NCBI GenBank assembly: GCA_012729815.1
Contig: JAAYCJ010000052.1
Location: forward strand, 1 to 47,123
DNA length: 47,123 bases
Reading direction: 5' to 3'
Source: Phycisphaerae bacterium
Lineage (GTDB): Bacteria > Planctomycetota > Phycisphaerae > JAAYCJ01
Below, in pieces: positions 32,539-39,802 of this stretch (position 1 is its first letter; each line of letters begins with the position of its first letter). The notes under the pieces were generated by a model that searched no databases, was not told the origin of the DNA, and saw only the letters and a list, made by a program, of their open reading frames with translations. The translations under genes were made by a program, and so were the position numbers.

Positions 32539-32775
32539 CGAAACACCCTCATCTGGTCGCCGGATGCATAGAATATAGCGGTCCGGCGCGATTTGCCACC
32601 CCGCGTTTCGGATCGCCCGGCGGGCGGCCCAGCCGTCGCCGGCAGTGCGTACGACAAAACGGTAAGCCGCCCGAGCCATCACCGCCAGGAGCCGACCGGT
32701 TGAACGATCCCGAGAGCCTCATGAGACGGCGAGTAAAAAAACGCAACGAATCCGCGCGAACTTTTACCGCGGCGG

Positions 32776-32803
32776 TTGACCGGAAGGAATAGAATTATAT
32801 GGT
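32776..32803 (+). promoter_or_regulatory. Possible promoter of the RNA candidate upstream of dnaG
   Basis: TTGACC (32776-32781) and TATGGT (32798-32803) are separated by 16 bases. Confidence 0.45.
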
Positions 32804-32809
32804 ACCATT

Positions 32810-33023
32810 AAACAGGAGCCGGTAACACTTCGGGGCACGCATCGCCGCAGGAGCGTAAGTTGTTGATCGGCAAATAGATCTGCAGAACGACCAGGCCGTT
32901 GTTTTCGCTACGGTTCCAGCATTGAAAACCCACAATCAGCAACTAAAGAAGGTGCCAGTTCCGCGTCATTCGGAGCGGAATCTCCCGGAATCGGCGGCCG
33001 GGCATTTGCCCGCCCATTTTTTT
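32810..33023 (+). ncRNA. Candidate structured RNA or transcribed leader ahead of dnaG
   Basis: A segment of about 210 bases bounded by a promoter and an intrinsic terminator, with no open frame of note. It can fold into nested long-range stems: GGAG (32815-32818) with CTCC (32982-32985), GGCAC (32834-32838) with GTGCC (32952-32956), and AGTTGTTGATCG (32858-32869) with CAATCAGCAACT (32933-32944; one mismatch, one wobble). A side hairpin pairs TTCCGC with GCGGAA (about 32959-32980). The rod-like layout and length recall 6S RNA, but I cannot show homology. It may instead be an attenuated leader of dnaG. Confidence 0.4.
32996..33023 (+). terminator. Intrinsic terminator upstream of dnaG
   Basis: A stem of seven base pairs with one bulged C (GGcCGGGC with GCCCGCC) and an ATTT loop is followed by ATTTTTTT. 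It ends transcription arriving from the left, and its right arm overlaps the dnaG -35 box. Confidence 0.85.
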
Positions 33024-33034
33024 GGATGTATACT
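33006..33034 (+). promoter_or_regulatory. Predicted promoter of dnaG
   Basis: TTGCCC (33006-33011) and TATACT (33029-33034) are separated by 17 bases. The -35 box lies in the loop and right arm of the upstream terminator. The implied dnaG leader is about 83 bases. Confidence 0.6.
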
Positions 33035-33123
33035 TATAGGGCTTCACGGGCGCCACACCGAAGCGCGGTGCACTGAAATCCTTTACCAGCAAGAGCTTGC
33101 AACACTCTAGCTCAGTACGGCTG

Positions 33124-34950
33124 ATGGAGCCATCGTTGAGCGGACAGGGATTTTTTCATCTTGTACAAAGTGTCGTTCATGCCAACGACATCGTCGATGT
33201 GGTCGGCGAGCACGTGGCCCTGAAGCCCCGAGGTCGCAACTTTATCGGACTTTGTCCCTTTCATAAGGAAAAAACCCCCAGTTTCAATGTCAATCCGGAG
33301 CGGCAGATTTTCAAGTGCTTCGGCTGTGGGGCGGGGGGGGACGCGATCAAGTTCGTTCAGCAGATCTTTAACATCGAGTTCAAGGAAGCCCTGGAACTGC
33401 TGGCCCGTCGGGCGAATATCCAGTTGGAGTCGCTCAAGGGCACGGTCAAGACCGGACAGGGCCCTTCGAAAACCGAAATCTACAAGGCCAACGCGTGGGC
33501 GGCCGAGGTGTACAGCCGCATTCTGTGGAAGACTCCCACGGGGGAGCCGGCGCGTAACTACCTGGCTGGCCGCAAGTTGGGGCGGGAAATCTGCGAGCAG
33601 TTTGCTCTGGGTTTCGCTCCGCCGGACGGCCGGTCGCTGTTGGAAGCGGCGGGTCGGGCGGGTGTCGCCCCCGCGGTGCTTGGCGCGGCGGGCCTGGCGT
33701 TGACAAGAGGCAATAGTTTCTCCGATCTTTTCCGGAACCGCGTTCTGTTTCCCATCCACGACGCCACAGGCAACGTGATCGCCTTCGGCGGACGGACCAT
33801 GGGCGACGACGAGCCGAAGTACCTGAACACCCCGGAAACGCCGGTTTTTCACAAGAGCCGCAGCGCGTTCGGGATCCTTCAGGGCCGTTCGGTGATCCAG
33901 GAGTCCAAGCAGGTCGTGGTGGTCGAGGGCTACACCGACGTGATGGCCTGCCACCAGGGCGGTATCCGCAACGTGGTGGCCACGCTGGGCACGGCGCTGA
34001 CCGAAGAGCACGTGATGGTGCTCCGGCGCTACGCCGATCAGATCGTGCTGATTTTCGACGGCGATCGGGCGGGCGAGAAGGCGGCCGACCGGGCTCTGGC
34101 GTTGTTCCTGACCATGGGCATCGACGTGAAGGTGGCCCAGCTTCCCGAAGGCAAGGATCCCTGCGACCTGGTGCTCGGCGACGGGCCCGAGGCGTTTTCG
34201 CACGCGGTGGCCGCAGCGGCTGACGCCCTGGACTACAAGTGGCAGCAGTTGCGGCGGCGGTACGACGTATCGGCCACATCGCGCGAGCGCCGGACCGCCA
34301 TCGAGGAACTGCTGCGGACGATCGCGGTCTGCGATCCGGCGGGCAAGGTCGACGCGATCCAGCGGAGCATGGTGCTCAGCCGTCTGGCGGGCATGCTGTC
34401 GGTCCCGGTGGCCGAGTTGGCCAAGGGGCTTCAGGGCTTCCGCCGGCAGTCGGGCCACTCGCGGCAGGAACGGCAGGAGCCGGTGCAGGTCGGACTGCCG
34501 GTTCCGCAGAACTCGGCGGAGGCGGCCCTCAAGGAACTGGCTGAGGTGCTGGTCTGCGAGCCGGGATACGTCGGCGAGGTTCGCGAGCTGGTCGACCCGG
34601 ACGCGGTCGAGCCGCCGATGCTGCGGGAGGTCTACCGCCACCTGTGGCGGGCGTGGGAGGAGTGGGGCGAGTTCTCGCTGGCCGAGCTGATTGCGACGGT
34701 CGAGGACGTGGCCCTCTCGAACGTGATCACCGAGTTGCACCGGTTGGGCATGGATCGGGGAAACTTCGCGGCGACGGTGGAAGAGTCGCTGCGGTGCATC
34801 GAGGAGTGGCGGCGGGATCAGCAGGCCTCGCAGCTTGCGGCGGGGCTGGAGAACGAGCTGAGCGAGGAAGAGATGGACCGGCGTCTGGCGGTCCTGCAGA
34901 AGAACATGTCGGTTCCGTTCCGGCGCACGGCCGGGCCGATGGTGGACTAG
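33124..34950 (+). CDS. dnaG: DNA primase
   Basis: Makes RNA primers at the replication fork. The 608-residue protein has the N-terminal CHC2 zinc ribbon (C44, H47, C65, C68 in LCPFHKEKTPSF and FKCFGCGAGGD), the RNA polymerase core, and the TOPRIM domain with VVVVEGYTDVMACHQGG and IVLIFDGDRAGEKAADRAL, holding the catalytic glutamate and the DxD. The C-terminal helicase-binding part is divergent, as is usual. The ATG at 33124 has no clear Shine-Dalgarno; an in-frame TTG at 33097 is also weak, and similarity begins after 33124. It lies upstream of rpoD as in the macromolecular-synthesis operon, but each gene has its own promoter. Confidence 0.96.
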   Translation: MEPSLSGQGFFHLVQSVVHANDIVDVVGEHVALKPRGRNFIGLCPFHKEKTPSFNVNPERQIFKCFGCGAGGDAIKFVQQIFNIEFKEALELLARRANIQLESLKGTVKTGQGPSKTEIYKANAWAAEVYSRILWKTPTGEPARNYLAGRKLGREICEQFALGFAPPDGRSLLEAAGRAGVAPAVLGAAGLALTRGNSFSDLFRNRVLFPIHDATGNVIAFGGRTMGDDEPKYLNTPETPVFHKSRSAFGILQGRSVIQESKQVVVVEGYTDVMACHQGGIRNVVATLGTALTEEHVMVLRRYADQIVLIFDGDRAGEKAADRALALFLTMGIDVKVAQLPEGKDPCDLVLGDGPEAFSHAVAAAADALDYKWQQLRRRYDVSATSRERRTAIEELLRTIAVCDPAGKVDAIQRSMVLSRLAGMLSVPVAELAKGLQGFRRQSGHSRQERQEPVQVGLPVPQNSAEAALKELAEVLVCEPGYVGEVRELVDPDAVEPPMLREVYRHLWRAWEEWGEFSLAELIATVEDVALSNVITELHRLGMDRGNFAATVEESLRCIEEWRRDQQASQLAAGLENELSEEEMDRRLAVLQKNMSVPFRRTAGPMVD

Positions 34951-37346: not shown

Positions 37347-37730
37347 CTAGTCGAGCGTCCGGGCCACCACGATCACTCCGAGCACGATCAGCCCCACCCC
37401 CAGCCACTGCCAGGGCGATAACCTTTCGTTCAGCCGCGAAAAGGAGGCAACCGATACAATGATAGCGAAACCGCCGCCGATCATGATCGGATAGGCCAGC
37501 GACACCTTGAACCGTCCGAGGGCGTAGAAGTAGAGCGGCACGTTGAGGGCGAAGAGGATCAGACCCAGCAGCAGCGTTGGCGAGGACAGAGCCGTTTTGA
37601 TCGCCGCAAGCGCTCCGCGATCAAAGAAACGGCCTTCGCTCAGCAGGTCGCGGGCGGCGAACTTCAGCAGCAGGTTGGCTGAGGCGTTGAACACGACCGC
37701 GAAGGTCAGGGCCGCCAGGTACCTGTACAT
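37347..37730 (-). CDS. EamA/SMR-like small membrane transporter
   Basis: A 127-residue protein with four predicted transmembrane helices: residues 3-20, 49-69 (SPTLLLGLILFALNVPLYFY), 77-98 (SLAYPIMIGGGFAIIVSV) and 107-124 (WQWLGVGLIVLGVIVVAR). The pattern, including YALGRFKVSLAYPI, is that of half-size EamA/small multidrug resistance family proteins such as ArnE/ArnF and EmrE relatives. Such proteins act as dimers. The conserved membrane glutamate of EmrE is not obvious in helix 1, which carries Asn and Lys instead, so drug export is doubtful. The ATG at 37730 is preferred over the in-frame TTG at 37745. It diverges from thrS. Confidence 0.75.
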   Translation of the reverse strand: MYRYLAALTFAVVFNASANLLLKFAARDLLSEGRFFDRGALAAIKTALSSPTLLLGLILFALNVPLYFYALGRFKVSLAYPIMIGGGFAIIVSVASFSRLNERLSPWQWLGVGLIVLGVIVVARTLD

Positions 37731-37783
37731 TGACACTTTCCTCAATAACTGTATAGTAACCTTAGTTTTACGGCAATCCGCGC

Positions 37784-37858: not shown

Positions 37859-39802
37859 GTGGTAAAGCTGCGTTTCGACGACGGGCGGGTCCGCGAAGCC
37901 CAAGGGCCCGACCAGATTGTGGAAATCGTGAAGGAAGAGTGTCCTGATCTTGCGGATCGGGTGATCGGCCTGAAGACCGACGGCCGGGTGGTTGACCTGA
38001 ACGCTCCGACGCCCGGGGACGGCGAGGTCCGCCCGGTCTTCGGCACGGACAGCGATCCGGTGGCCCTGGAAATCCTGCGCCACAGCACGGCCCACCTTCT
38101 GGCCCAGGCAGTTCGCGATCTCTATGGCGAAAAGGTCCAATACACGATTGGTCCAGCCTTAATTGAGGATTTCAAGTACGGCTTTTACTACGACTTCGAT
38201 CTGCCCGAGCCGGTCGGGACGGAAGACTTGGCCAAGATCGAAAAGCGGATGCACAAGCTGGCCCAGAAGCGGGAGGCTTTCGTGCGGCACGAGGTGCCGG
38301 TCGATCAGGCCAAGGCTGAGTTCGAGAAGATCGGACAGGGCTATAAGGTCGAGTTGATCGATGACCTGGTCCGCAACGAGGGGGTTCGTGAGGTCAGCCT
38401 GTACCGGCACGGCCAGTTCCTCGACCTGTGTCGCGGTCCGCACGTACCGCATAGCGCGATGCTCAAGGTCTTCAAGCTGCTGAGCGTGGCGGGGGCCTAC
38501 TGGCGGGGTGATGCCGCAAATAAGATGCTGACAAGGATTTACGGTGTTGCCTATTTTGAGCAGGAGAACCTGGACAAGCATCTGGAGCGGATCGCGGAGG
38601 CTGAACGTCGTGACCATCGGGTGCTTGGCAAGCAGCTTGATTTGTATTCGATAAGCGATCTTGTTGGGCCGGGTCTGATCCTCTGGCACCCGAATGGAGC
38701 GATCATTCGCCAGACGATCGAGCGGTTCTGGATCGACGAGCACATCAAGCACGGCTATAAGATCCTTTACACCCCGCATATCGCCCACGAGCGGATTTAC
38801 CAGACCTCCGGGCACCTGGAGGCCTACGGCGAGATGATGTACTCACCGATGGACATCGAGGGGCAGAACTTCCGGGTCAAGCCGATGAATTGCCCGGGCC
38901 ACCTGGAGATATTCAAGAGTCAGACCCGAAGCTACCGCGATCTGCCGCTGCGGTACTGCGAGCTGGGGACGGTCTACCGCTACGAGCCCAGCGGGACGCT
39001 GCACGGGATGCTTCGGGTGCGCGGGTTTACCCAGGACGACGCCCACGTGTTCTGCTCGCTGGAGCAGCTCACCGACGAGATCGAGAAGATCTACGAATTT
39101 GTAGATTTTATGATGCGGACCTTCGGCTACCAGTACAAGGTCGAGCTGGCCACGCGGCCGGAGAAGAGCATCGGGACAGATGAGGAGTGGGAAAAATCGA
39201 CGGCGGCTTTGCGGGCGGTGCTCGATAAGCGTAGAATACCATATGGAGTCGAGGAAGGCGGGGGAGTATTTTACGGACCCAAGATACAGATGCTGCTGGT
39301 GGACAGCCTCGGTCGCGAATGGCAGGGTCCGACGGTGCAGGTGGATTTGAACCTGCCGCGTCGGTTCGGCTGCACGTACATCGGGGCCGACAACCGCGAG
39401 CACGTGCCGGTGATGATCCACCGGGCCCTGCTGGGCTCGATGGAACGGTTCGTGGGCGGGCTGGTCGAGCACTACGCCGGGGCGTTTCCGATCTGGCTGG
39501 CACCGGTGCAGGTGGTGGTGATGCCGGTCAGCGAGAAGTTCAACGCGTACGGCCGGCAGGTGTACCAGCGGCTGTTCGATGCGTCGGTGCGGGTCGAACT
39601 GGACGACTCCGACGACAAGATCGGGGCCAAGATCCGGCGGGCGACGATGCAGAAGGCGCCGTACATGCTGATCGTGGGCGCGCGGGAGCAGGAGGCGGGT
39701 CAGGTCTCGGTCCGGTCGCGCAAGGCGGGCGACGTGGGTCAGCAGGATCTGGAGGGCTTCGTTGCCGCGGTAACCGACGAGATCAAGACGAAAGCATTAT
39801 GA
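37859..39802 (+). CDS. thrS: Threonine-tRNA ligase
   Basis: Charges tRNA-Thr. The 647-residue protein has the N-terminal TGS domain (residues 1-62), the editing domain (HSTAHLLAQAVRDLYG, then later the zinc-like H-x-H region and VSLYRHGQFLDLCRGPHVPH), the class II core with MNCPGHLEIFKSQTRSYRDL containing the zinc cysteine, motif 2 near LGTVYRYEPSGTLHGMLRVR, motif 3 (MIHRALLGSMERFVGGLVEH) and the anticodon domain. The start is GTG at 37859 with an AGG eight bases upstream. It is followed by infC, the common thrS-infC order, 91 bases later. Confidence 0.97.
   Translation: MVKLRFDDGRVREAQGPDQIVEIVKEECPDLADRVIGLKTDGRVVDLNAPTPGDGEVRPVFGTDSDPVALEILRHSTAHLLAQAVRDLYGEKVQYTIGPALIEDFKYGFYYDFDLPEPVGTEDLAKIEKRMHKLAQKREAFVRHEVPVDQAKAEFEKIGQGYKVELIDDLVRNEGVREVSLYRHGQFLDLCRGPHVPHSAMLKVFKLLSVAGAYWRGDAANKMLTRIYGVAYFEQENLDKHLERIAEAERRDHRVLGKQLDLYSISDLVGPGLILWHPNGAIIRQTIERFWIDEHIKHGYKILYTPHIAHERIYQTSGHLEAYGEMMYSPMDIEGQNFRVKPMNCPGHLEIFKSQTRSYRDLPLRYCELGTVYRYEPSGTLHGMLRVRGFTQDDAHVFCSLEQLTDEIEKIYEFVDFMMRTFGYQYKVELATRPEKSIGTDEEWEKSTAALRAVLDKRRIPYGVEEGGGVFYGPKIQMLLVDSLGREWQGPTVQVDLNLPRRFGCTYIGADNREHVPVMIHRALLGSMERFVGGLVEHYAGAFPIWLAPVQVVVMPVSEKFNAYGRQVYQRLFDASVRVELDDSDDKIGAKIRRATMQKAPYMLIVGAREQEAGQVSVRSRKAGDVGQQDLEGFVAAVTDEIKTKAL

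Follow-up and report, generated by a model that had tools for sequence, protein, structure and literature searches.

The window analyzed here, a 47,123-nucleotide stretch of DNA, is contig C52 of the 5.47-Mb genome of a Phycisphaerae bacterium (G000, 367 contigs). Two divergently oriented genes enclose the segment of interest: recO, on the minus strand, whose product matches TIGR00613 and whose true start is probably an ATG near 32541 preceded by a Shine-Dalgarno sequence, and dnaG, on the plus strand, whose product matches TIGR01391 and which is followed by rpoD. The sequence-only reading had placed a structured RNA of about 210 bases, with its own promoter and terminator, between these genes, and the letters it described are present. 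Only two genomes in our sample of relatives, G001 and G002, belong to the same family, and their DnaG proteins are 50-52% identical to that of the window. We assigned the dnaG start to the TTG at 33136-33138, which lies behind the Shine-Dalgarno sequence GATGGAG (33123-33129), because the arrangement TTG-AGC-GGA-CAG behind GATGGAG is shared with G002; an earlier in-frame TTG at 33097 is therefore probably not the start. For several kilobases upstream of the terminator described below, all genes are on the minus strand. A literature search found nothing on the recO-dnaG intergenic locus.

The terminator is the only strong signal in the element. It consists of a hairpin at 32996-33014 (GGCCGGGC-ATTT-GCCCGCC) followed by CA and a run of seven T residues at 33017-33023, and thus bears out the earlier description of a textbook intrinsic terminator. 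Under a strict definition, only four terminators, including this one (32996-33023, plus strand), occur in the 47-kb window. The other three each lie 50-200 bases behind a gene on the same strand, and the one ahead of dnaG is the sole exception. Of all the arguments for a non-coding plus-strand transcript at this locus, the strongest is this strict terminator, which has no same-strand gene for several kilobases upstream.

A promoter-like pair on the plus strand precedes the terminator at 32776-32803, with a -35 of TTGACC (32776-32781), a 16-base spacer, and a -10 of TATGGT (32798-32803), matching 9 of 12 consensus positions. Shuffling the intergenic stretch yielded a score as high in 1.8% of cases. 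The pair described previously is thus present, but its -10 is poor, TATGGT being weak beside the TATACT or TATATT typical of the class. Elsewhere, matches to the pattern TTGAC-TATANT occur only twice in the window, compared with 0.03 expected, at 37730-37757 on the plus strand, in a long gap ahead of a frame at 37859, and at 550-575 on the minus strand.

The upstream regions of dnaG from 90 genomes of the class were surveyed, and a recurrent promoter, TTGAC (or TTGCC)-N16-17-TATACTT/TATATTT, mostly located 70-250 nt before dnaG, could be recognized without alignment across many families. In the window, a promoter typical of the class in both type and distance is found at 33006-33034 on the plus strand (TTGCCC-17-TATACT; full form TTGCCC-17-TATACTTATAGG, with a -10 of TATACTT), and its -35 lies inside the terminator, overlapping the loop and the 3' arm of the hairpin. 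Since this class-typical dnaG promoter is downstream of the terminator, the element probably precedes the dnaG leader and forms no part of it. A 13-mer within this region, GTATACTTATAGG (33028-33040), occurs twice in the genome, the second copy being at C217:19557-19569 (L100), and once in G002 (C141:2350-2362, L099), just upstream of rpoD.

The predicted non-coding transcript would span 32810-33021 on the plus strand, about 210 nt, with its start placed from the position of the -10 and its end from the T run. The lists of open reading frames and a Pfam scan of stop-to-stop frames across the element, in which none of the frames tested had a match, support the earlier claim that it holds no protein frame and leave no coding alternative. 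Likewise, no tRNA or tmRNA was found in it. Folded to minimum energy, 32810-33021 forms a nested rod with the 12-base stem noted previously; in this stem, 32858-32869 pairs with 32933-32944 at 11 of 12 positions, counting G-U pairs, with one mismatch. A local hairpin, GTTCCGC..GCGGAAT (32958-32981), was common to the minimum-energy folds of both analyses. While the 12-base stem does exist, 142 of 200 sequences obtained by dinucleotide shuffling of the segment contained one as good, and the fold as a whole was at the level of chance, with z scores of -1.23 for 32800-33023, -0.64 for 32810-33021, and +0.15 for 32810-32956, and a range of -1.5 to +0.15 over all cuts. The fold of the element is therefore evidence of nothing, and the claim of a structured RNA is unproven; no homologue was found with which to align the element and look for compensatory changes.

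Homologues of the element were sought in several ways. DNA searches of 101 genomes produced none that was convincing, the short matches at E values of 0.002-0.006 being partly inspected, and a loose cut-off likewise produced none in G001 or G002. One short match elsewhere in the genome (C34) was coding-like. A covariance model built from the single sequence found no convincing homologue in 40 genomes; the best match other than the element itself (E 0.022, in one genome of the 40) was gapped, spanned 87 nt, and was taken as chance. A scan of genome contigs with DnaG returned distant loci only, chiefly from Bacillus and Peribacillus. In G001 and G002, recO is beside neither dnaG nor such an element. 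The G001 contig starts 78 bases ahead of the dnaG match, and in G002 a different gene precedes dnaG. Separately, G001 contig C561 (L020) begins, at bases 1-19, with AGATGTGTATAAGAGACAG, which resembles unremoved sequencing adapter.

The size and rod-like layout of the element had been said to recall 6S RNA, a comparison that model searches do not uphold. RF00013 gave no match to the element with permissive filters and no match in the whole genome at E values up to 10. This model scored above its cut-off in 18 of 61 relatives from the class, and in 31 of 61 at E ≤ 1. Two class-specific models were also employed, one (R1) built from 19 relatives, which picked up further members of the class, and the other (R3) built from 27 members and containing 33 pairs. 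With filters off, the highest score anywhere in 32700-33160 was 2.7 bits for R1 and 0.7 bits for R3, compared to R1 scores of 38-156 bits for the 27 6S RNAs of the class. The motifs shared by these RNAs (CUCUGC, GAACCGAU, GCCCACCU, and CGGCA..GCGG) were, as judged by eye, not present in the element. These results indicate that the element is not a recognizable 6S RNA. Although 6S RNA is detectable in most sampled genomes of the class, neither RF00013 nor the class-specific models found one in G000, G001, G002, G005, or G014, and in these genomes, the family of G000-G002 included, it may have been lost or may have diverged beyond detection. Weak full-length matches to the 6S models in G002 (C139) and G001 (C247) were coding-like on inspection and unlike each other. 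The idea that the element is itself the 6S RNA of this family, much diverged, would be consistent with its roughly appropriate size, its rod-like minimum-energy fold, and the lack of another 6S RNA in the three genomes, but in view of the model scores and missing motifs we consider this very improbable, particularly as several further genomes of the class lack a confident 6S match, so that the absence is not peculiar to this family.

Because the terminator has no plus-strand gene to serve and the dnaG promoter lies downstream of it, it is plausible that the element is a non-coding unit of its own, ended by this terminator. Our favored reading, held tentatively and with a little less than even confidence, is that the element is a candidate short orphan non-coding transcription unit occupying approximately 32810-33021. 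The rarity of strict terminators, the infrequency of the promoter score among shuffles, the lack of a Pfam match, and the downstream dnaG promoter all argue for this unit, whereas the chance-level fold, the failure to find a homologue in the same-family genomes G001 and G002 or in the class relatives searched, and the weak -10 argue against it, as do crude duplex energies between the RNA and the recO, dnaG, and rpoD leaders, which were not significant (12-105 of 200 shuffles were as good). Several of these same points would fit an arrangement with no RNA gene at all, in which the terminator insulates against stray plus-strand transcription and the -35/-10 pair arose by chance. The weak -10, the unremarkable fold, and the lack of conservation in the family or class speak for this explanation; a promoter score matched in so few shuffles, and the sensible distance between the pair and a strong terminator, speak against it, and we regard it as unlikely.

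It is also conceivable that dnaG is transcribed from the promoter at 32776, with the terminator at 32996-33023 acting as a regulated stop within an attenuated dnaG-rpoD leader of about 330 nt with conditional read-through. Within the 250 nt preceding dnaG, hairpins resembling terminators were detected in 9 of 90 genomes of the class, compared to 0-5 in shuffles, and the dnaG of G002 is also preceded by a promoter-like site and a hairpin. The dnaG leaders of two other relatives, G003 (L037) and G036 (L122), carry a strong TTGACT-17-TATACTT promoter, a terminator approximately 120-160 nt later, and dnaG approximately 90 nt further on, so that attenuation of dnaG-rpoD is possible in their family. 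There, the terminator sits between the strong promoter and dnaG, 86-95 nt from the gene, compared to 119 nt here. The terminator considered here lies between promoter and gene start only with respect to the 32776 promoter, while the best class-like dnaG promoter lies past it. Unlike in G003 and G036, then, a class-typical dnaG promoter (score 17.7 versus 15.5) follows the terminator, and dnaG consequently needs no read-through; in addition, no candidate antiterminator stem in the element exceeded chance. We keep attenuation at this locus as a rival reading, slightly less likely than the insulating terminator.

Under the favored reading of an orphan unit, RNA polymerase would start near 32810 and produce an untranslated RNA of about 210 nt, stopping at the terminator with an end near 33021. 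Polymerase would thus terminate within the dnaG-rpoD promoter, past its -35 but short of its -10, and for this reason polymerases transcribing the unit and those initiating at dnaG would be expected to compete by interference, with the terminator keeping upstream transcripts from entering dnaG. We infer transcription of the unit and, as its most evident consequence, a local effect on the overlapping dnaG-rpoD promoter; a role for the RNA in trans is speculative. A more elaborate version, in which a lineage-specific regulatory RNA unit lies within the dnaG-rpoD promoter and RNA synthesis occludes it as a local substitute for the unfound 6S RNA, strikes us as highly doubtful. If transcribed, the element would be a small RNA particular to this lineage, with a terminator built into the promoter that drives primase and the housekeeping sigma factor, and would offer a simple means of tying dnaG-rpoD expression to another signal. 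The suggestion that the locus harbors an undescribed element is thus plausible as regards a separate non-coding unit and unsupported as regards a structured or 6S-like one. The negative results are themselves useful, in that a recognizable 6S RNA can be set aside and the fold given no evidential weight; what is left is an ordinary uncharacterized intergenic small RNA candidate, plausible yet unproven.

Among known systems, 6S RNA (RF00013) resembles the element in approximate length and in the long nested fold that can be drawn, but the element has no match to RF00013 or the class models and the shared class motifs are not seen. Similarity to SorX and SorY (RF02784 and RF02651) was below threshold (19.4 and 15.4 bits, against gathering scores of 46.6 and 111), lay in the final two hairpins, one of them the terminator, and was taken as chance. 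The element also resembles the stand-alone intergenic small RNAs of bacteria, with which it has in common a promoter-like site, the lack of a reading frame, a length of about 210 nt, an intrinsic terminator, and divergent flanking genes; it differs from them in being predicted from sequence, with no homologues and a fold at chance level. In the rpsU-dnaG-rpoD operon of Escherichia coli, dnaG is likewise closely preceded by an intrinsic terminator and followed by rpoD. The window, in contrast, has a divergent recO and no rpsU, and its terminator, which overlaps the promoter of dnaG itself, comes after non-coding sequence.
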